Source: a virus. Taken from it: 50,951 bases of DNA. The notes beneath the pieces were generated by a model. That model was not told the origin of the DNA. It searched no databases and saw only the letters and a list, made by a program, of their open reading frames with translations. The stretch's first letter is position 1. Every line of letters begins with the position of its first letter. Location: positions 1-50,951 of IMG/VR virus record IMGVR_UViG_3300009183_000122, one strand, 5' to 3'. The position numbers and the translations under genes are program-made. Shown in pieces: positions 20,401-44,154 of this stretch.

Positions 20401-20452
20401 TAATTTTGAATTAAATGTGGGAATAAATTTTGATATAATATGTAATCAATAA
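17435..20452 (+). CDS. Tail/baseplate protein with GpI-like helical core
   Basis: A 1005-residue structural protein. N-terminal 250 residues are beta-rich. About residues 300-490 are helical and contain YLFKSKGTRKSIEILLRLIG, a pattern seen in phage tail proteins of the P2 GpI type, which sit at the baseplate periphery and hold fibres. The middle is Tyr/Asn/Pro-rich. The C-terminal ~110 residues form a small domain (strand-rich, with conserved Cys near the end) that resembles a domain around residues 600-700 of the next protein. Its stop overlaps the next ATG (TAATG), which fits a fibre-attachment protein followed by its fibre. Assignment to the GpI family is tentative. Confidence 0.6.
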   Translation: MAVKKYTCPPQSPSGQGTFSDNLVGLQLVDGGGFTQANFEFTTSITEKQNRNFSIGAFSEPISLDTLNIESVTESRVIQANNFKVYPNFDLSQVTNFTLYGSLVKRISTSILHIINFFPGALEITSVLPNYTTSETATNILYDAVEDETTFDVYISSLRNPFDIDYSSNANRNFELLEIEVSSLRNFTVNYPKYSLFINGSEYPFIFFSPSNNTSTTLSFVVKGNPFSGNSISYDSLVIRPNDIYVNKTFNEAMDEVEQFLLNRSITPIYTSTFTVPKENEDGTIYLTTQAITFPKNGQWNLDISSLAFDNYLTTLNEFAANLDLYRTNLISRFLTTGAIKEFDTPDQKIEKVLQIYGRSFDETKKFISALSNMNNVNYNIKNDIPSQLLKNLAMTLGWDPNISPITNDQLLDSVFSPGSNNFSGLSVGMTPEELNYQYYRNLILNSAYLFKSKGTRKSIEILLRLIGAPEALIEFNEYIYIADQKINIEEFNGQYAQLSGGTYTQQLPVLDTTDIYSIHGQQFTGFTTTSIISDVNVYPEDYPIDDFGYPMMPTTSDSYYFQIGGGWFESTPQHRMPEQVDTTNSVFTGANPNYQTTLLPFNYGEEYLQRYRTFPYMNLGYKLRRIVDNKKSWTDTQTGLRTNFDGNFNAYYPVNSDKLVINVKNVDIFMNPAQGLVYDVWTMSRQYNYPIPNQGLNYVEPTRCNPTPNTPYPQRGGIDWTVINPKPKEKTFFEFAQTFWHNTINVRNRQFITDGKTGGYPTLQSIYWKYLESGQAINVPNDNFTYQTMIDYVNGLGTYWIKLIEQMVPATTIWNTGTKLENSIFHRQKFVWRRQMGCQLVPVPCDPCYAIGQLLPYDCPIQSVECPIYPWGSNPNVNSFGVVLGDVLTTYLNDNGYDLNNDCLVNTLTSEWYVDVRLNGNQIIDYKFFDGYGYSVSGTSFPTQVNWLNALYDSLPQMINEGLTFSINETTNVVTIINNNCISLNNQNNFELNVGINFDIICNQ

Positions 20453-23400
20453 TGGGTGCTATACTTATAAGTCAATTTAATTTAACGGGGGATTGTACAA
20501 ATGAAGGGTTAGGTGTTGTAACTTTTACTGTGACTGGAGATAGTCCCAATTGGTTAGTGACTGAAACTCCTACTCCCGATGTTAATTTACCAACATCGGC
20601 ATTAACAATATCTAATAATGTTTATTATTATTCAGGTTTAAGTCCGGGTAGTTATTTTTTACAAGTATACGACTCAACATATAGTAATTATGAGGTTGTA
20701 AATTTTTATATATCTTCAGGTACCTGTGTTTCAATTAATACGACAGATACTACTTGTGGTTTTGATAACGGAGGTATAACCGCAACAACAGAATATTATT
20801 ATGGTGGTGGAGCAGGGGCGACTTTTGCTTTATATGATATTGGTGATAATTTTATTTCAAGTGGAACTTCAATAAGTAATGAATATGTTTTTCCTCCTGT
20901 TTCTGGTGGAACTTATTATGTTGTTGCTAATGATGGGGGTGGTTGTACAGGTATAAGTCAATCCTGTATAATTAATGAATCAATACCATTTGATTATGGT
21001 TATTATGTTGTAAATGATGGAAGTTGTATAAGTAGTGATGGCAGTGGTAAAATATTTTTAACAGGTTTATCTGATCCAAGTTTATATACGGTTAATTGGT
21101 TAACGAGTGTTAATGGGCAAACTGGAACAACGGTAACAGGTTTAACTGCAGGTTTATATAATGTAGAAGTTACAAATAATGATGGTTGTGTTGCAAGTAA
21201 AATAATCACAATTACTGGTGTGGAACCATTGGGTATTGGTGGTTTTATGACATATCCACCTGATTGTTTTGTAAATAATGGTGAAATAAATATAATTGTA
21301 ACAGGTGGAACCGCACCATATTATATTGGATGTTCTAATGGTGATAGTGCGATAATATTTAATAATGAATATACTTTTACAGGTTTATTTTCGGGAACAT
21401 ACAATTTTAACATAATAGATGCCGGAGTATGTAAAGTATCTGGAACAACGTCTATCAATACTTCTAATAGTTTTCAAGTATCAAGTATTAATACCGTAAA
21501 TTCAACTTGTAATGATAATACAGGATCGGTAAATATTACTTTAATTGGATCAGGATTTTATACATATATTTTAACTAACTCATTAAATGAAGGAGATCAA
21601 GTTGGGCCTACTCAAGATATAGTACAAAATTTTGATACATTATCTTCAGGTGATTATAATTTGGTAATAACTGATGGTGTATGTACATATGAAAATACAA
21701 TTACAATTCGTAATACCGAAAAATTCACAATTTCCGCAATCACACAAAATACTACTTGTGGATTAAATAATGGATCAATACAATTATTGGCAAGTACGGG
21801 TGGAACATTACCTTATAGTTATCAGATTACAGGATTTCCGCCTTCATTAACAACTACTTTTAATAATTTAGCACCTGGTAATTATGTAGGTACAGTAACT
21901 GATAGTACGGGTTGTTCACAAACTTTAAATATTTATATTAATAATTCTAATGGGGTATTATTTGATTTAATTGTAACTCAACCAACAAGTGGTAATAATG
22001 GTCAAATTGATACTATTATATATAACGGAACACCAACATTTACATATGATTGGAGTCCAAACGTTAATGGTCAAACAGGATCAACCGTTACATCATTAAG
22101 TGGTGGTACATATAGTTTGGAGTTAACAGATTCAAGTGGATGTACATATGTAAAAACGGTTACTTTAACAGGAACTAATAAAAAATTAAGTTATCAAACA
22201 TATAACATATGTAATGATAATTTCCAAAATACGGGAATACTTGGTAAACGAGGTATGCAACAAATGTTATCCGAAGGTTTTGCAGATTTAACATATGATG
22301 ATACTGGATGTGTTATTATTAGTGCTGATTTTATCGCGGATATTACCGTTGATGGTGTAAATACTCAAGAGTCCTTTTATGTTTCATCAGGATTAACGGA
22401 TTATCCATCTGATTATACTTGGGGTCAAACTCTTATTGGAATTTTAGAAAGTTATGATGGTATCAGTAAAGTTGAAATAGATTATGCGACTAATGAAATA
22501 AAAATTTATAATAAATGTGTTGAAATTGATGAATGTCAACCTCAAACTATTTATTATTTATCTGATGCAAATATTGTGATCAATTTGAAATTGGAATATA
22601 ACATTTCTTGTTATCAATGTATTGTAACACCAACACCAACACCAACACAAACTTTAACACAAACAGTAACGCCAACACAAACTTTAACACCTACGCAAAC
22701 ATTAACGCAAACTTTAACACAAACGGTAACTCCAACACAAACTTTAACATCAACACCAGGGTTATCACCTACGTCTACACCTACGCAAACATTAACACAA
22801 ACGGTAGTACCAACGACTACACCTACGTTAACGCAAACGGTAACTCAAACATTAGATCCAACTGCAACTCCAACACCTACACCTACATTAACACAAACAT
22901 TAGCACCAACTGCAACTCCAACACCTACATTAACACAAACGTTAACACAAACATTAGCACCAACTGCAACTCCAACACCTACATTAACACAAACGTTAAC
23001 GCAAACATTAGCACCAACTGCAACTCCAACACCTACATTAACACAAACGTTAACACAAACATTAGCACCAACTGAGACTCCTACACCTACATTAACACAA
23101 ACATTAACGCAAACAGTTACAAGAACTTTAACTCCAACTCCAACTAATACTCAGACATTAACACAAACATTAGCGCCAACTGAGACTCCTACACCTACAT
23201 TAACACAAACGTTAACACAAACATTAGCGCCAACTGAGACTCCTACACCTACATTAACACAAACAGTTACGCAAACATTAGCACCAACTGAGACTCCTAC
23301 ACCTACATTAACACAAACACCTACGCCTACATTATCACCAACGTCTACACCTACGCCTACATTAACACAAACGGTAACACCAACTCCAACACCAGCAACA

Positions 23401-23832
23401 TTTGCTGATTGTATTGAAGGGACTATACCAAAGTATACTAATTACGACTATTACCCATGTTGTTATCCTTACTCAAAAATAATTGGAACAACTGGTGGTT
23501 CTCCGGAGACTGTATGTTATAATCCTTTTTCTGCTTCCACAAATGTTACTCCAGTTTCACCTCAAGTAATTTGTAATATACCCCTATTAACTAGTTGTTG
23601 TCAAATTCAATTGGGTTACGATTTATCTGACAGTGTTGTGGCTTGTGGGGCGGTACAATCAACATACTATATAAGTACCCCTTGTAAGGCTACTAGTTGT
23701 GATTTGAATGGTGCGTTCGCAATCTATACAGATAACTCTTGTACTACATTAGCACCTGACGGATATTATTCGGATGGTATTGACTATGGATCACAATCTG
23801 GTGGAGTTTTTGCTTTTGTTGGTCCATGTTAA
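20452..23832 (+). CDS. Tail fibre/adhesin with SprB-like repeats and a long Thr/Pro/Gln linker
   Basis: A 1126-residue fibre. About residues 90-580 hold a series of ~80-residue beta repeats with the SprB-repeat pattern: Cys, NNG or NDG, a strand, GG(T)xPY, and a closing SGxYxxxxxDxxGC (for example GGTAPYYIG and APGNYVGTVTDSTGC). SprB repeats are known from the Bacteroidota gliding adhesin SprB. A small domain follows (about 585-720), then a mucin-like linker of about 260 residues (723-982) made of TPTLTQTLTQT-type repeats, then a Cys-rich tip domain (983-1126) ending in a YTDNSCTT...DGYYSDG module. The layout (stalk, flexible linker, tip) fits receptor binding. The adjacent glycosyltransferase may modify the linker; this is inference. 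Confidence 0.75.
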   Translation: MGAILISQFNLTGDCTNEGLGVVTFTVTGDSPNWLVTETPTPDVNLPTSALTISNNVYYYSGLSPGSYFLQVYDSTYSNYEVVNFYISSGTCVSINTTDTTCGFDNGGITATTEYYYGGGAGATFALYDIGDNFISSGTSISNEYVFPPVSGGTYYVVANDGGGCTGISQSCIINESIPFDYGYYVVNDGSCISSDGSGKIFLTGLSDPSLYTVNWLTSVNGQTGTTVTGLTAGLYNVEVTNNDGCVASKIITITGVEPLGIGGFMTYPPDCFVNNGEINIIVTGGTAPYYIGCSNGDSAIIFNNEYTFTGLFSGTYNFNIIDAGVCKVSGTTSINTSNSFQVSSINTVNSTCNDNTGSVNITLIGSGFYTYILTNSLNEGDQVGPTQDIVQNFDTLSSGDYNLVITDGVCTYENTITIRNTEKFTISAITQNTTCGLNNGSIQLLASTGGTLPYSYQITGFPPSLTTTFNNLAPGNYVGTVTDSTGCSQTLNIYINNSNGVLFDLIVTQPTSGNNGQIDTIIYNGTPTFTYDWSPNVNGQTGSTVTSLSGGTYSLELTDSSGCTYVKTVTLTGTNKKLSYQTYNICNDNFQNTGILGKRGMQQMLSEGFADLTYDDTGCVIISADFIADITVDGVNTQESFYVSSGLTDYPSDYTWGQTLIGILESYDGISKVEIDYATNEIKIYNKCVEIDECQPQTIYYLSDANIVINLKLEYNISCYQCIVTPTPTPTQTLTQTVTPTQTLTPTQTLTQTLTQTVTPTQTLTSTPGLSPTSTPTQTLTQTVVPTTTPTLTQTVTQTLDPTATPTPTPTLTQTLAPTATPTPTLTQTLTQTLAPTATPTPTLTQTLTQTLAPTATPTPTLTQTLTQTLAPTETPTPTLTQTLTQTVTRTLTPTPTNTQTLTQTLAPTETPTPTLTQTLTQTLAPTETPTPTLTQTVTQTLAPTETPTPTLTQTPTPTLSPTSTPTPTLTQTVTPTPTPATFADCIEGTIPKYTNYDYYPCCYPYSKIIGTTGGSPETVCYNPFSASTNVTPVSPQVICNIPLLTSCCQIQLGYDLSDSVVACGAVQSTYYISTPCKATSCDLNGAFAIYTDNSCTTLAPDGYYSDGIDYGSQSGGVFAFVGPC
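22618..23399 (+). repeat. Thr/Pro/Gln-encoding minisatellite
   Basis: An in-frame tandem repeat of about 780 bases. It begins with ACACCA triplets and develops into a higher-order unit of about 54 bases encoding 18 residues (ACACCTACATTAACACAAAC as the opening of the unit). The unit occurs several times between about 22880 and 23340 with few changes (TATP versus TETP variants), which points to recent unit duplication. A 155-codon reading frame in another phase is a by-product. Confidence 0.9.
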
Positions 23833-29517: not shown

Positions 29518-31800
29518 TTAATTAGTTGCACAATACCCACCAACTACTACAGTGATTATAACAAAACTTGATGTTGATGTTGGTACGGAACTTGAACACG
29601 TTTTATTATACTTTTGAGAATTAATAGTTTGTATTATTGGTAAACCTGTGCCACAGTCGGTATATGTATATGTTAAAGGTTGAATAAAAGTGTTATTTAT
29701 TAAGTATTGTATACAAGCAGGACGTGTTAATGTAGGTGTTGGTGTTGGCGTACCTGTTGGTGTTGGTGTTGGTGTTTGAGTGTTTACAATTAAACATTGT
29801 GAACAATACCCTTCAGATTCAGGACCTAAAATATTTGTTAAAACTATAGTACTAACACCACCAATATCACTTACAAATCCATCATACACAACACAAGTAG
29901 ATATACCATTAATAAATGATTCATATACATATCCTTTATCTGGTGTATTACCTAAAGGATCTAAAACAACATCTGTTGTGTAATATAAGAACCCTGTATT
30001 ACATTCTTTAAAACGTTTACTACCATTACATATAATATAATCGTCAAACGTGTTAAACACGACTGACCCATCAAAATTACAATTATATTGTGGTGATGGG
30101 GTTGGAGTTGCAATCATTTTACCACTTGTTGCGGTAGGTGTCGGTGTTAATACATTTGCAGTTACCGATATTCCTTTACCACCACAAATTTCAGTTGCGG
30201 TAGGTGTTTGGGTTGGTGTAGGTGTTGGAGTTCCAGTTACGGTTGCCGTCGGGGTTAAAGGTAACTCACAATCAAACGCAGCTTCAAAAGATATTGGTTG
30301 ACAATATTGTGTTGGTGTTGGAGTTGGAGTAGGACAAGATCCATTAGTGAAAAAATCATCACATAAATCAGGACAATCAGTATTACAAGGTGATGGACCA
30401 AATAAATAACAATCACCATCTAATGAGTCTGACAAACACCAACGATTGCTATCTGATGAAAAATAAATAACTAAACCATTTGTTTGACCAAGCCAAAAAA
30501 GTTGTTCATTCCATGTACCACCACTAATATATGTATCATCATAAGCAATGTCACCTGTTGAAATACAATAAGATTCATAAGGACATATAATTGGTGGTTC
30601 GGGGCAAATATCGCAAAAATTATATTTAACACAGGTATTATCACAAGAATTATAAATATAACCTGATGAGCAAGTGTAACCTGAAGTTGAATATACACCA
30701 GCATTAGATTGTACTAAAGTTGCTTGGGTTTTACCCGACGATGTAAATAAAATATTAAGATCCGAATATAATGTTGCGGAATTTAATTCGGGTAATGTGT
30801 TATCATAAATTTCACAACCAAAACCACCATATGAATCATCATTTCGGCCATATAATTCAATAATGTGGTTACCTGAATTCAAAGTTAACGGGTAAATATT
30901 CCATCTTTTATATGTCTTACCCGCGGAGTCCCAATATGTTGATAAACTAGAGTCAACAATTGTGGTACCATCAATTTTTAATTTAAAATCATTATCACCA
31001 CCAATACCTATATAATATGTTTTTGTTTCTTCTATATCAATACATTGACTGAAACCAAGCCATACATCATATGGAGGTGCGACAGTTGGATAACTAACAG
31101 TCCATACACCACATCTATTTAATGGGCCACCAGTGGTATTAAATAAGGGATTATCCCATAAAGTATTTGAAGGTAATAGTACATAATCACCACCACCTGG
31201 GTTCGTAAAACCTAAAATACTATAACCTGGATTATAAACAAATGACCCATATACACTATATTGTGAATACCCTATATCAACAAAAGATATTGGTGTTAAA
31301 GGAGCGGTTGCGGAAACAACCTCCAATGAATAACACTGAGTTTCACTATAAGCCGAATAACTTGGGCCGCATTCTATACAACTACCTGTACAAATTGTTG
31401 TTGGGGTAGGTGTTGGAGTAGGTGTTGATGTTAATACAGGTGTTGATATTGTTGCCGTTGGTGTTAGTGTTGGTGTTAGTGTTGGTGTCGGTGTTGGAGT
31501 ACTTGTTTCTCTTGATGATGATGTTGTTGGTGTTGGTGTTGTTGTTAGTGTTGGGGTTGGGGTATTAGTTAAACAAGGATCAATATCGTCTATTCCTCCT
31601 TTAATATGATCAAGGTGGTAAAGATTAGTGCCGTTAGAATACCATGATAAATCAGTTGCCTGAGTTGAACAACCAGGGTTTGTATATAACATTTGTCCAA
31701 TACTTAAACTATTACCATAAAGGGTAAGAGTAAATGGTCCTGAACACAACCCTGTTGGAGATGCGTTTCCAACTGTAAACGTTCCTAAATTAACACACAT
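29518..31800 (-). CDS. Minus-strand adhesin / fibre protein with PA14-like domain and Thr/Pro linkers
   Basis: A 760-residue modular protein. Order: N-terminal module of about 75 residues with LYTNPGCSTQATDLSWYSNG, similar to the tip module of the 1126-residue fibre; a Thr/Pro linker (about 80-140); a PA14-like domain (about 160-335) with TYYIGIGGDNDFKLKIDG and a following NHIIELYGRND; Cys-rich segments; a module (YCISTGDIAYDDTYISGG to LFGPSP, about 415-480) related to one in the 441-residue fibre; several PTPTPT linkers; and a C-terminal Cys-containing part. PA14 domains commonly bind carbohydrate. No signal peptide is visible, so it is more likely a virion component than a secreted protein. 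Its minus orientation opposite the other fibres is odd. Confidence 0.65.
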   Translation of the reverse strand: MCVNLGTFTVGNASPTGLCSGPFTLTLYGNSLSIGQMLYTNPGCSTQATDLSWYSNGTNLYHLDHIKGGIDDIDPCLTNTPTPTLTTTPTPTTSSSRETSTPTPTPTLTPTLTPTATISTPVLTSTPTPTPTPTTICTGSCIECGPSYSAYSETQCYSLEVVSATAPLTPISFVDIGYSQYSVYGSFVYNPGYSILGFTNPGGGDYVLLPSNTLWDNPLFNTTGGPLNRCGVWTVSYPTVAPPYDVWLGFSQCIDIEETKTYYIGIGGDNDFKLKIDGTTIVDSSLSTYWDSAGKTYKRWNIYPLTLNSGNHIIELYGRNDDSYGGFGCEIYDNTLPELNSATLYSDLNILFTSSGKTQATLVQSNAGVYSTSGYTCSSGYIYNSCDNTCVKYNFCDICPEPPIICPYESYCISTGDIAYDDTYISGGTWNEQLFWLGQTNGLVIYFSSDSNRWCLSDSLDGDCYLFGPSPCNTDCPDLCDDFFTNGSCPTPTPTPTQYCQPISFEAAFDCELPLTPTATVTGTPTPTPTQTPTATEICGGKGISVTANVLTPTPTATSGKMIATPTPSPQYNCNFDGSVVFNTFDDYIICNGSKRFKECNTGFLYYTTDVVLDPLGNTPDKGYVYESFINGISTCVVYDGFVSDIGGVSTIVLTNILGPESEGYCSQCLIVNTQTPTPTPTGTPTPTPTLTRPACIQYLINNTFIQPLTYTYTDCGTGLPIIQTINSQKYNKTCSSSVPTSTSSFVIITVVVGGYCATN
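31397..31565 (-). repeat. Thr/Pro-encoding tandem repeat in the minus-strand adhesin
   Basis: Degenerate repeats of ACACCAACA-type triplets read on the minus strand, encoding PTPTPT. Smaller patches lie near 29725-29782, 30085-30260 and 30305-30340. They are inverted relative to the repeats at 22.6-23.4 kb. Confidence 0.8.
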
Positions 31801-41016: not shown

Positions 41017-41817
41017 ATGAAAGACAAAAATTTAGGGATTCCGATTAACCAAGAAGAGATTCAACATTATCTAAAAGATATTCGTAGAATTAAAGTAATG
41101 ACACCTGACAGAGAAAAAGAACTGGCGGTTAAGATGAAGGCTGATGATACTCCTAAACGTGAAAGGGAAAAAATTGAATCCGAGTTATTAGTTGGTAATT
41201 TACGTTTTGTAATTACGGTGGCCAAACAATATCAGAATCAAGGTTTGGATTTATCTGATCTAATTGCTGAAGGTAATTTGGGTTTGATGAAAGCGATTAA
41301 AAACTTTGATTGGCATAAAGATCTACGTTTTATATCATACGCAGTTTGGTGGGTTAAACAATCTATCATCCAGTCGTTGAATGATAACGCAAGAACGATC
41401 AGACTTCCAGTTAATGTTGTTCAGGACCTACATAAGGCTAAGAAAGAAATTGCGATTACAGGTAAAGAATTAGAATTAAAGTTTTCATCATTACCGTCTA
41501 TGATTGATTTGGATATGACAATCAATGATGAAGGTGACACATTGGTTGATATGATTGCTAATCCTAACGCACTTGCTCCTGATGCGGGATTCAACACTAA
41601 AGATATGTTAAAGAACAAATTAATATCTTTATTAAATGTGTTAGATGAAAGAGAAAAAGTGATAATTGAGGATTATTTTGGATTAAGTGGAACACCAAGA
41701 ACACTTGAAGACATTGGTGGAGATTTTGGTTTAACTAAAGAACGAGTTAGACAGATTAAGGAAAGAGCCCTTAGAAGATTGAGAAATGAAAGTTCAGAAC
41801 TATTTGATTACTTATAA
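41017..41817 (+). CDS. RNA polymerase sigma factor, RpoD-like
   Basis: A 266-residue sigma-70 protein complete from region 1.2 (EEIQHYLKDIRRIKVMTPDR) through region 2 (NLRFVITVAKQYQNQGLDLS, and the melting segment FISYAVWWVKQSI), a region 3 and region 4 (a helix-turn-helix, DIGGDFGLTKERVRQIKERA). It is close in form to primary Bacteroidota sigma factors but lacks region 1.1. In T4 the late sigma-like protein gp55 is much reduced; here the protein is near full length. It sits close after gp46, as gp55 does in T4. It is likely to redirect host RNA polymerase to phage promoters, perhaps those with the TATTTAT motif; that link is inferred. Confidence 0.93.
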   Translation: MKDKNLGIPINQEEIQHYLKDIRRIKVMTPDREKELAVKMKADDTPKREREKIESELLVGNLRFVITVAKQYQNQGLDLSDLIAEGNLGLMKAIKNFDWHKDLRFISYAVWWVKQSIIQSLNDNARTIRLPVNVVQDLHKAKKEIAITGKELELKFSSLPSMIDLDMTINDEGDTLVDMIANPNALAPDAGFNTKDMLKNKLISLLNVLDEREKVIIEDYFGLSGTPRTLEDIGGDFGLTKERVRQIKERALRRLRNESSELFDYL

Positions 41818-41832
41818 AAAAAATAAAAAAAC

Positions 41833-42279
41833 ATGGGAAGTGTAATTGATTATATTGAATGTCCAAATTGTAAACAAGAAGCGTTTAGCGATTTCTATTA
41901 CAAAACAGGTGAAGATTATATAAATTGTGGTAGTTGTGGGTACCATTATGCTCAAACATTAAAAAGAGATGAGGATGGAAAATTTGTAACCGAAGATGGT
42001 ACTGATAATTATAACTTTGATAATCTTATTATGGAAGTTTCGGAACTTAAAAATCCATTTGGTTCGTATCGTTTAAAAGTTTATCAGTCACCGGCAACTC
42101 AAGTTGGGTCATTTGAAACTGAGGAACAATATAATGAGTTTAAGTTACAAATTGAAGGGGATGTTGAAATTGAATTCTGTTCTGTGTCAAGATTTGTTGA
42201 TGGTGAAATCAAAGTTGAAATGATAATTGATAATGGACCTAAGGTTGATTCTGCTGGATTTACAATTGAGGATCGTTAA
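41833..42279 (+). CDS. Zinc-ribbon protein in the sigma-factor operon
   Basis: A 148-residue protein with a zinc ribbon at the N-terminus: CPNC (about 10-13) and CGSCG (about 32-36). The rest is an acidic beta-type domain with EEQYNEFKLQIEGD. It follows the sigma gene by 15 bases and shares its transcript. Zinc-ribbon factors next to sigma factors suggest a partner of RNA polymerase or of the sigma factor, as T4 uses small co-activators for late transcription. That role is inferred; no family was recognised. Confidence 0.65.
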   Translation: MGSVIDYIECPNCKQEAFSDFYYKTGEDYINCGSCGYHYAQTLKRDEDGKFVTEDGTDNYNFDNLIMEVSELKNPFGSYRLKVYQSPATQVGSFETEEQYNEFKLQIEGDVEIEFCSVSRFVDGEIKVEMIIDNGPKVDSAGFTIEDR

Positions 42280-42290
42280 TTTAAAAAAGA

Positions 42291-42322
42291 TTTGGCAGAT
42301 TGAAATAAAATACTTATATTTG
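42291..42322 (+). promoter_or_regulatory. Bacteroidota-type promoter for a small RNA
   Basis: TTTG at 42291-42294, a 20-base spacer, then TATATTTG at 42315-42322, an exact fit to the Bacteroidota consensus. No open reading frame follows on this strand; the expected start lies near 42328-42331. Confidence 0.78.
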
Positions 42323-42328
42323 TAAGAC

Positions 42329-42468
42329 AAACGAAAAGGGTTGAACCGAGATTACCCTTACAACTCGGCGGAATGAGACACGATGTTCTCTGGGTGAAAA
42401 TCCTCAATCTTACTCGTGATGTAAGATGAAATTACACTCCCCCATTGGTACCAGTGGGGGTTTATTTT
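42329..42468 (+). ncRNA. Structured small RNA with pseudoknot, about 140 nt, unknown class
   Basis: Between a host-type promoter and an intrinsic terminator lies a non-coding stretch with exact complementarities. A pseudoknot forms from AAGGG (42336-42340) with CCCTT (42355-42359) and CCGAG (42346-42350) with CTCGG (42364-42368). A hairpin GAGA/TCTC (42375-42378, 42387-42390) follows, then GGGT-GAAA-ATCC, a GNRA tetraloop hairpin (42392-42403), and a 7-bp hairpin ATCTTAC/GTAAGAT (42407-42427). The loop sequences CACGA (42379-42383) and TCGTG (42414-42418) are perfectly complementary and could kiss. No tRNA, tmRNA, 6S or known riboswitch pattern was recognised. Both ends are inferred from the promoter and terminator. 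Confidence 0.7.
42439..42468 (+). terminator. Intrinsic terminator of the small RNA
   Basis: CCCCCA (42439-42444) pairs with TGGGGG (42455-42460); an inner TGG/CCA pairing extends the stem, and TTTATTTT follows. The T-rich tail overlaps the stop codon of the convergent minus-strand gene at 42462. Confidence 0.82.
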
Positions 42469-42881
42469 GCGGTAATAACTAGTTGACCTCTACCGACATA
42501 AAAATCAGACTTCCGCATAACGGTTTTAATAATAAGATTAAATTCGTAAGGATTAACTTCTTGTATTAGAATTGGAATATTAAGAAGGTTTGATTCATCT
42601 TTAATTACAAACTCAACACCATCATATAATTCACCAATGACAATATATTGTACGATATCATCCTTTACCTTATCTACTGATTTTAAGATATCATAATCTC
42701 TAATTGCATCACCACCTTCTGAAAAATGTCTTGTTTTTCTCGTTTCCGCATGGGACTTCATTCCAGGTACATTTCCACGTTGGTATCTTAAATTCATGGT
42801 AACAGTAAGGTTTGCTTTGATCTCAGCAATCTTCTTTTCTAAGATTAAAATTTTACGTATTGATTCTCTAAGTAATGACAT
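42462..42881 (-). CDS. Unknown minus-strand protein
   Basis: A 139-residue protein, start at the ATG at 42881. The N-terminus MSLLRESIRKILILEKK is a short amphipathic helix like those that open the proteins at 44.7 and 47.1 kb. The rest is an alpha/beta domain with charged loops (IVIGELYDGVEFVIKDE). It is divergent from the lysis-like cassette and convergent with the small RNA, whose terminator touches its stop codon. Its own promoter-like motif (TATTTAT at 42888-42894, minus strand) lies 6 bases upstream. No family was recognised; a virion component is a possibility because of the N-terminus. Confidence 0.55.
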   Translation of the reverse strand: MSLLRESIRKILILEKKIAEIKANLTVTMNLRYQRGNVPGMKSHAETRKTRHFSEGGDAIRDYDILKSVDKVKDDIVQYIVIGELYDGVEFVIKDESNLLNIPILIQEVNPYEFNLIIKTVMRKSDFYVGRGQLVITAK

Positions 42882-42887
42882 AATTAT

Positions 42888-42894
42888 ATAAATA
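42888..42894 (-). promoter_or_regulatory. Putative late promoter motif TATTTAT, minus strand
   Basis: GGTATTTATATAATT on the minus strand directly precedes the ATG at 42881. It pairs with a second copy at 42906-42917 (TATTTATAAATA, palindromic) in this divergent intergenic region. Confidence 0.38.
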
Positions 42895-42905
42895 CCTTAT
42901 ATTGA

Positions 42906-42917
42906 TATTTATAAATA
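42906..42917 (+). promoter_or_regulatory. Palindromic TATTTATAAATA motif between divergent genes
   Basis: The 12-base sequence reads the same on both strands and contains TATTTAT in both directions, 13 bases before the + strand ATG at 42931. It could serve the + gene, the minus gene, or both. Confidence 0.4.
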
Positions 42918-42930
42918 CAAAACAATTACT

Positions 42931-44154
42931 ATGAAAGAAAAATTTTTACCTTGGTTTTTATTATTTTGTGCTCTTGGTCTATCAGGAACTGCCGCTTATT
43001 ATAGTGTGGTAGGATTATCAGTGGTATTTGTTGGTGTTGCGTTACCTGTAATCATTATGGGATCTTTTCTTGAGGTATCTAAGATTGCAATTGCCACATA
43101 CTTACACGACAAGTGGAAAGAAACATACGGAGTCTTAAAGATATACCTTACAATCGCTCTAATAACTTTATCTCTTATTACTTCACTTGGTATCTATGGT
43201 TTATTGAGTACTGGGTTTCAGGGGAATATTGCAAAACTTGAGATTAATCAAAAAAAGATTGCAAATGTTGAAGTAAAGAAAACAAGATTTATTGAAATAA
43301 AAAACGAACAACAGAAAGAGAAAGATGTATTAGATAAGGACATTTCAAAGTTAAGAGATGGATTATCTACCAATACCACAACACAATCTGTAGATAGAAA
43401 AACAGGTCAACTTATTACAAAGGCAAATAATGCTAACCGTAAATCATTTGAGGATCAATTAAAACTTACCACAGAAAATAGAGATAAGGTATCCACTCGT
43501 ATTGATGGTATGAATGATAGTATAACTAAATTAGATATTGAAATACTTAATATGGAATCTGCTGAGTTGGAAGGTAGTGAGTTAGGATCTATTAAATACA
43601 TTAGTGAGATTTCAGGTTGGGATATTAAACAAGTTGCAAACCTTTTCATTTTACTTTTAATTTTTGTATTTGATCCATTAGCAATTACATTAGTTATTGC
43701 GACTAACCAAGCATTTAAAAAAAATAAAAAAGAAAGTAGTACCATACATGATACCATACATGATACCATACATGATGAGGTTGAAGTTCCTGAAAGTTAC
43801 TTTCATAATTATACCCCCCAAGTCACCCCCCAAGTCACCCCCCAAGTCACCCCCCAAGTTACCCCCCAAGTTGAACCAATTGTAGTTGAAAAAATTGTTG
43901 AAGTTATTAAGGAAGTGGAGAAGATTGTTGAGGTCATTAAGGAAGTAGAAAAAATTGTTGAAGTACCTGTAATAGTACATAGAGATCCATTAAATATTAT
44001 TGAGGTAAATACTTGGGAACCAACATTTGCTGATAATATGTCTGAGGAAACTGAATATGATATGATTAGTAATGGAACGGGTGGTGAGTCAACAACTACC
44101 ACAACAACTGATGATGGTATTAAAAGATTAGTTTATAAAAAGAACGATGAATGA
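42931..44154 (+). CDS. Multi-pass membrane protein with coiled coil and repeat tail
   Basis: A 407-residue membrane protein. Four N-terminal membrane segments span about residues 7-100 (including LLFCALGLSGTAAYYSVVGL and VVFVGVALPVIIMG). A coiled coil follows (about 105-210), then another hydrophobic segment (VANLFILLLIFVFDPLAITL, about 232-255). After it come a short TIHD repeat (three copies), a TPQV repeat (five copies), and VEKIVEVIKE-type heptads. The layout, first gene before the endolysin, would suit a holin, an anti-holin or a membrane regulator of lysis, but no named family was matched and the size is large for a holin. Codon use in the TPQV repeats is unlike the rest of the genome. 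Confidence 0.6.
   Translation: MKEKFLPWFLLFCALGLSGTAAYYSVVGLSVVFVGVALPVIIMGSFLEVSKIAIATYLHDKWKETYGVLKIYLTIALITLSLITSLGIYGLLSTGFQGNIAKLEINQKKIANVEVKKTRFIEIKNEQQKEKDVLDKDISKLRDGLSTNTTTQSVDRKTGQLITKANNANRKSFEDQLKLTTENRDKVSTRIDGMNDSITKLDIEILNMESAELEGSELGSIKYISEISGWDIKQVANLFILLLIFVFDPLAITLVIATNQAFKKNKKESSTIHDTIHDTIHDEVEVPESYFHNYTPQVTPQVTPQVTPQVTPQVEPIVVEKIVEVIKEVEKIVEVIKEVEKIVEVPVIVHRDPLNIIEVNTWEPTFADNMSEETEYDMISNGTGGESTTTTTTDDGIKRLVYKKNDE
43741..43776 (+). repeat. Three tandem copies of ACCATACATGAT
   Basis: A perfect 12-base unit repeated three times, encoding TIHD three times, within the membrane protein gene. Confidence 0.9.
43813..43872 (+). repeat. Five tandem ACCCCCCAAGTC units, G-quadruplex-prone on the minus strand
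   Basis: A 12-base unit repeated five times (the last two end in GTT), encoding TPQV. It gives five C6 runs on the + strand and therefore five G6 runs with 6-base loops on the minus strand. In an otherwise AT-rich genome that usually encodes Pro with CCA or CCT, this is exceptional. Confidence 0.9.

Follow-up and report, generated by a model that had tools for sequence, protein, structure and literature searches.

A conserved structured RNA with a pseudoknot core, encoded beside a sigma-factor gene in phages

The locus and the parts of the RNA

The window, by which we mean the whole stretch of DNA analysed, is a virus record of 50,951 bases. On its plus strand it carries a gene for a sigma-70-family factor (41017-41817; Pfam Sigma70_r2, r4 and r1_2; PHROG 351). 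The ORF list and synteny place two further ORFs around the RNA: a 148-aa ORF (41833-42279, +), found between the sigma gene and the RNA in the window clade, and a convergent 139-aa ORF (42462-42881, -), which ends at the RNA tail and whose relatives also adjoin the RNA in L141, L129 and L120. The gap between these two ORFs contains, at 42336-42460 (+), what sequence comparison indicates is almost certainly one copy of a real conserved structured non-coding RNA, of a family confined to phages in the searches made. Loci long enough to show the gene order had a 790-aa SbcC-like ORF (a label that is a reading of the sequence and not the result of a family search), a 175-aa DUF6576 ORF, the sigma gene, optional ORFs, the RNA, optionally the convergent 139-aa ORF, a 407-aa ORF and an amidase. 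The RNA lay on the strand of the sigma gene wherever both were seen. The initial annotation had described a neighbouring lysis cassette, which is borne out by the amidase (Pfam Amidase_2) and not by the 407-aa gene, for which neither a Pfam nor a PHROG match was obtained. Elsewhere in the window, 20452-23832 and 29518-31800 hold long ORFs with many TPTPTLTQT-type repeats that are tail-fibre-like in look.

Upstream of the RNA, a TTTG element of the Bacteroidota promoter type (42291-42294, the -33 element) is followed after 20 nt by the -7 box TATATTTG (42315-42322); TTTG lies upstream in only part of the family. The RNA itself begins with two helices that cross each other, P1, formed by AAGGG (42336-42340) and CCCTT (42355-42359), and P2, formed by CCGAG (42346-42350) and CTCGG (42364-42368). 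Three hairpins follow: P3 (42375-42390; GAGA/TCTC, loop CACGATGT), P4 (42392-42404; GGG/CCT around the 7-nt, T-loop-like loop TGAAAAT) and P5 (42407-42427; 7 bp, 42407-42413 with 42421-42427, and a variable loop). The linker between P5 and the terminator (42428-42438) reads GAAATTACACT in the window, and its commonest form in the family is GAAACTACACT (30 of 61 members). An intrinsic terminator (42439-42468), with a 9-bp stem (42439-42447 with 42452-42460) and the T-rich tail TTTATTTT, closes the unit. Measured from P1 through the terminator, members are about 125-135 nt long. Those of the L141 group are longer: L141 has no terminator at the usual place and has a terminator-like hairpin farther downstream, and L129 and L158 align as L141 does in this region.

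The promoter with its 20-nt spacing, both crossed helices, the 7-bp hairpin and the terminator had all been described in the initial annotation, and all are present as sequence in the window. It had also drawn a GNRA-capped hairpin, GGGT-GAAA-ATCC. A hairpin does lie there, but another description suits it better: in 54 of the 59 members of one alignment and 56 of the 61 of the other (see below), conserved (A/G)GG and CC flank a 7-nt UGNRANN loop. An 18-codon ORF (MRHDVLWVKILNLTRDVR) at 42373-42429 overlaps P3 to P5; relatives show in-frame stops and frame shifts in it, and a short coding gene was rejected. The tip of the terminator (42447-42452) is palindromic: GGTACC is common, other members have GGCGCC or GATATC, and both sides change together. 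This could permit dimers or be due to chance.

Comparative support for the fold

Two alignments were used. The first comprised 59 distinct full members, leaving out three that were truncated at the ends of their stretches (L164, which is distinct, and L090 and L102, which are pieces inside other rows); the second added L376 and L388 to give 61. In the larger alignment, the structure made up of P1 crossed with P2, P3, P4, P5 and the terminator was kept in 91.9% of 2073 pair cells, compared to 41.9-56.2% for slid control structures. Double changes were seen in 18 of 34 pairs. Cells changed on both sides numbered 183 against a shuffle mean of 61.0, and none of 500 shuffles reached as high a number. 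The covariation score was 0.314 versus 0.175, and at most 0.107 when the structure was slid by 1-3 columns. Judged from these aligned sequences, covariation backs P3, P5, one P4 pair, the terminator hairpin and P1.

Double changes occurred in all four P3 pairs (95.9% of cells paired), in four of the seven P5 pairs (94.1% of cells paired) and in eight of the nine terminator pairs. The outer P4 pair was AU in 29 members, GU in 20, GC in 9 and something else in 3; an inner P4 pair (42395-42401) was kept in 5/61 only and was dropped. Within P1, GGG/CCC was invariant and the outermost pair (42336-42359) was kept in 38 of 61 members and absent in 23. The pair 42337-42358 was A-U in 33 rows, U-A in 19 and not a standard pair in 9, and parsimony on a 59-row tree gave it 8 double changes, no one-sided pair-keeping change and 5 breaks. 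In a scan against a tree-based null, made with our own script in the manner of R-scape, this pair had an E value of ~4 over all column pairs and of ~5e-4 when taken as a single pair. Run over all columns against each other, the scan ranked the P5 pair 42410-42424 first and the P3 pair 42376-42389 second. Mixed pairs of P3 and P3-loop columns also ranked high after these two. We take these columns to switch jointly between two types of P3, and the scan is therefore not clean. P2 was paired in 61 of 61 members, with no double change and a single A-U to G-U change, in L388. The initial annotation had named an absence of compensatory changes in homologues as what would overturn its fold. We found double-changed pairs in each of P1, P3, P4, P5 and the terminator, and P2 is too constant for such testing.

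Chance as a source of the fold had been thought rare, given both crossed helices and a pair of kissing loops. The relatives do place the fold beyond chance, but neither of those two features does. H-type pseudoknots of 5+5 bp whose loops do not exceed 6 nt can be placed 118 times on the two strands of the window (registers counted separately; this RNA accounts for 2), and 48 of 2000 shuffled versions of this RNA contained pseudoknots of such geometry. By themselves, then, the crossed helices are weak evidence, and the proof lies in the relatives. The proposed kiss between CACGA and TCGTG fell away: 43.4% of 295 cells could pair, no better than in shuffles, covariation did not exceed that of shuffles, and TCGTG stood at that place in 5 of 61 members. 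The energy minimum of the window copy, under a model without pseudoknots, was a rod and not the proposed fold (-41.1 kcal/mol, z -2.34); its covariation was 0.068, equal to that of shuffles, and the rod was rejected.

The pseudoknot was the most conserved part of the RNA. Mean identity over 59 rows was 97.4% in its columns (5-36), 73.7% in P3, 87.1% in P4, 75.1% in P5 and 82.5% in the terminator. The sigma proteins of the carriers go down to 67.4% identity with that of the window; beside such drift, a core this constant suggests a partner that does not change. Search patterns taken from outside the pseudoknot recovered it: 52 of the 65 stretches found with a first set carried it, the other 13 being unrelated sequence, as did 24 of 24 found with a second set (23 exactly, and L388 with a G-U pair). 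This partial test indicates that the constancy of the pseudoknot was not created by the search alone. Outside the pseudoknot, the conserved single-stranded segments were CGGAA, the P3 loop, in which G 42382 and A 42383 were invariant in 61 rows, and GAAAC after P5. The P5 loops were of 20 types among 59 rows.

The T-loop pattern is U-N-N-R-A in a 7-nt loop closed by G-C, and the consensus of the tRNA T-loop is GG-UUCRANU-CC. At the level of sequence, P4 fits the pattern (TGNRANN in 56/61), with U as the last base of the loop in 53 members; the loop differs in L120 and L126, and in L141, L129 and L158. T-loops, as outlined in PMC4919913, are pentanucleotide motifs that dock by interdigitation and occur in tRNA, RNase P RNA and the T-box; the G-C-closed UGNRANN loop of P4 resembles their consensus, a likeness of loop motif and not family membership. 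We infer that the P4 loop may adopt a T-loop-like form in three dimensions.

Distribution and upstream boundary

A looser search pattern found the RNA in 90 IMG/VR stretches and stricter patterns in 40. Four contigs (L007, L008, L376 and L388) carried it in addition, and among the new matches listed for looser patterns in viral contigs only L365, from the contig of L007, was added. With the sigma protein of the window (41017-41814) as query, 80 related loci were obtained, of which 44 had the RNA and 36 had none that was found. An iterated profile search over 169 loci detected the RNA in 133, a count that includes overlapping loci from a single contig, and gave 62 distinct cores. Searches over the full length of 50 contigs (up to 292 kb, four above 200 kb) gave one full match in every case; L058 had a second, weak antisense match that overlapped the terminator. 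When the 36 contigs lacking the RNA beside the sigma gene were searched elsewhere, 33 gave no match, and the other three had a match of 21 bits that fell within another candidate RNA. A sigma tree of 67 rows required 8 gains or losses of the RNA, with labels that may miss copies where the stretch after the sigma gene is short (down to 83 nt, in L051), and it paired L027, which has the RNA, with its sister L029, which has a bare terminator. The 36 of 80 sigma loci in which the RNA was found neither beside sigma nor elsewhere in the contig, together with about 8 gains or losses, suggest that the RNA is dispensable for the phage group.

Outside these contigs, an exact pattern had no match in a collection of genomes from 84,980 species, and a 14-base pattern matched at least 118 stretches there, with no family member among the matches listed. 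A covariance model found nothing in 296 genomes from the phylum to which a Larkinella contig belongs (strict filters, run with no positive control) or in 6 further genomes. Among isolate phages, a similarity search with a consensus-like query gave no match; with the window copy as query, the best 20 of 35 records matched query positions 1-55 only, that is, the promoter and the start of the RNA. The baseplate protein is 25.5% identical to that of Flavobacterium phage immuto, which, together with the promoter type, suggests a host in the Bacteroidota.

The flavobacterial sigma-A consensus, as given in PMC9723704, has TAnnTTTG at -12 to -5. Applied to the box in the window, this rule predicts a start at ~42327, close to the site near 42329 that had been proposed earlier, also from sequence. 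The proposal that the RNA has a promoter of its own applies to the window clade and some other members, but not to the family as a whole. There were 73 distinct contexts, and 66 after the removal of 7 with less than 300 nt upstream. In 42 of the 66, the stop codon of an upstream ORF of at least 50 codons lay -3 to +15 nt from P1. The abutting ORF was most often sigma, otherwise the 148-aa ORF or others; a relative of the 148-aa ORF has its stop codon 1-7 nt from P1 in L003, L095, L096, L098, L105 and L123. A TAnnTTTG -7 box ending 9-21 nt before P1 was found in 20 of the other 24 contexts and in none of the 42, and L131, L156, L150 and L152 had neither the box nor an adjoining stop codon. The Fisher value for box versus stop-codon arrangement, 2.6e-13, overstates the case because the contexts are related phages and not independent. 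The 5' boundary of the RNA was constant while the upstream ORF varied between sigma, the 148-aa ORF and others. A stop-codon read-through element was rejected, as the spacing between P1 and the stop codon falls in all three frames and copies borne by a promoter occur without an ORF.

This arrangement bears on whether the RNA is a molecule of its own or a cis-acting element in the 3' untranslated part of the mRNA of the upstream gene (mostly sigma), where it would end transcription and protect or tune the 3' end. The 42 abutting stop codons suit a cis element, as does the bare terminator that follows sigma in some relatives without the RNA (L029, L054 and L056), and the constant neighbourhood fits it too. 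The same bare terminators, however, suggest that elsewhere a terminator suffices, and the box before P1 in 20 of 24 contexts implies transcription without an ORF there. L141, L129, L120 and L126 show no sigma gene within the stretch examined. A cis-acting element is an unlikely reading to us. A unit bounded by P1 and the terminator whatever lies upstream argues for a discrete RNA and, from the gene arrangement, a discrete RNA is a good deal the likelier of the two.

Known RNA families and possible roles

The lack of any recognised RNA class was confirmed in Rfam 15, which gave no match at gathering thresholds in the window or in 8 related loci. A lenient scan of the window returned 9 sub-threshold matches, the best at 19 bits where 39 are needed, and ARAGORN found no tRNA or tmRNA gene in the window. 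No paper on this RNA was found among the titles and abstracts of the literature searched.

Several known systems invite comparison. The stable RNAs C and D (species 1 and 2) of T4-like phages are small stable RNAs of unknown function, which we set beside this RNA by their general description and the Rfam scans. The antitoxin RNAs of type III systems (ToxI) are short H-type pseudoknots that bind a protein, arranged as tandem repeats beside the gene for an endoribonuclease toxin. In contrast, the RNA studied here is single-copy (50 of 50 contigs), without a repeat in window positions 41800-43000, and no toxin family was found among the neighbour genes scanned, the 139- and 407-aa ORFs having no family assignment. 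6S RNA is a long helical rod with a central bubble. It recalls this RNA, which lies beside the gene for a transcription factor, and an RNA of the 6S type was rejected, as covariation for a long rod was no higher than in shuffles. The GTTG...CAAC ends presumably resemble type VI-B CRISPR repeats only superficially. RNA anti-CRISPRs (Racr), as described in outline in PMC10651486, are small phage-borne RNAs, often behind a predicted promoter, that capture host defence proteins by mimicking CRISPR repeats as solitary units; in the present RNA, the conserved part is a pseudoknot. Both the T-loop and the Racr parallels are leads and not memberships. Phage-encoded small RNAs in general (reviewed in PMC12197685) resemble the present RNA in being short and non-coding, in its intrinsic terminator and in the promoter that some members have; the abstract and outline of that review name no such pseudoknot family. 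The RNA may act like a phage small RNA. The functions put forward in the initial annotation (a regulator of host RNA polymerase or mRNA, a decoy or a ribozyme) were guesses.

The reading that we favour, with a probability of roughly 0.45, is that the RNA is a phage-specific structured molecule that acts as a discrete unit and is probably bound by a protein through its pseudoknot. Transcription of the RNA would begin, in some phages, at a host-type promoter immediately upstream of P1. Elsewhere, the RNA would form the tail of the mRNA of the upstream gene and either be cut out of it or work while attached. A conserved partner might then bind the nearly invariant pseudoknot; this partner would most likely be a protein, and the step is the least certain one. 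P3, P4 and P5 would scaffold the pseudoknot and the terminator hairpin would protect the 3' end. A near-constant pseudoknot with variable, compensated hairpins is what is expected of a recognised core on a scaffold.

A discrete RNA could also regulate by base pairing with phage or host mRNAs. The promoter and terminator present in part of the family are in keeping with such a role, as are the conserved unpaired segments (CGGAA, the P3 loop and GAAAC). However, when 7 unpaired segments were set against the 49 start regions of the window, none clearly beat its shuffled versions (lowest p 0.09). Matches to the linker's complement were not enriched in the window (11 against 7.9 expected), and the P5 loops are highly diverse. 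We regard base pairing as unlikely. The pattern of a recognised core, together with no standout complementarity to the start regions of this phage, favours protein binding, which, if the RNA is discrete, seems somewhat the likelier main mode.

Downstream, 61 of 73 contexts have a relative of the 407-aa gene on the strand of the RNA, and the folded domain leads straight to a terminator, an arrangement that a riboswitch-like leader or attenuator of that gene would have. The opposite-strand 139-aa gene nevertheless comes after the RNA in 29 of 73 contexts, the window included (in 22 of these the 407-aa gene is next), and the stretches examined of L141, L129, L120 and L126 showed no 407-aa gene. 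No antiterminator-like helix appeared among the 60 pairs listed from the all-pair scan, and a leader is improbable. A self-cleaving ribozyme that frees the RNA from the upstream mRNA is more improbable still: a pseudoknot with an almost invariant core does lie where the mRNA would need cutting, but the 9 lenient Rfam matches include no ribozyme, cleavage would be superfluous where a promoter starts just before P1, and an HDV-like ribozyme, which is a nested double pseudoknot of five helices, was rejected on inspection of two crossed helices that lack the nested elements.

Returning to a discrete, protein-bound RNA, a bolder form of this reading, which we hold to be doubtful, is that of a new RNA class, produced along with the phage sigma factor, in which the pseudoknot and the T-loop-like arm serve as a compact device for seizing a conserved piece of machinery of the probable Bacteroidota hosts, such as RNA polymerase, a defence protein, or a component of the ribosome or of tRNA handling. 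The analysis adds a covariation-backed RNA family that has no Rfam match and was absent from isolate phages and host genomes in the searches made. Since the RNA is small and single-copy in the contigs searched, and sister phages without it exist, its role is directly testable with a cultured pair of host and phage.

Other non-coding stretches were seen near the sigma gene. A second conserved one lies at 5646-5820 in L047, 2613-2787 in L050 and 5839-5981 in L049 and L052, with ~73% identity in L041, L042, L023, L017, L015 and L014. It follows a TAnnTTTG box in L047 and L050, stands directly behind sigma in some phages but at different places in other phages, and had no Rfam match in L047 and L049; L049 and L052 carry the main RNA as well. 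Another candidate RNA, near 1469-1660 in L370-L372, has a promoter-like box, a terminator and a weak match to the model (21 bits). Two carriers of the main RNA also have similar stretches, seen in L151 (2893-2970) and L154 (1120-1267). Long, non-coding-looking stretches also follow sigma in two phages without the RNA, L061 (5842-6023, with a host-type promoter) and L046 (5801-6050). The 3' side of the sigma gene may be a hot spot for small RNAs. In L009, L010, L014, L022, L023, L057 and L064, which are without the RNA, a gene that its sequence marks as cytosine DNA methyltransferase-like begins at or just after the sigma stop codon, the place taken by the RNA in others.
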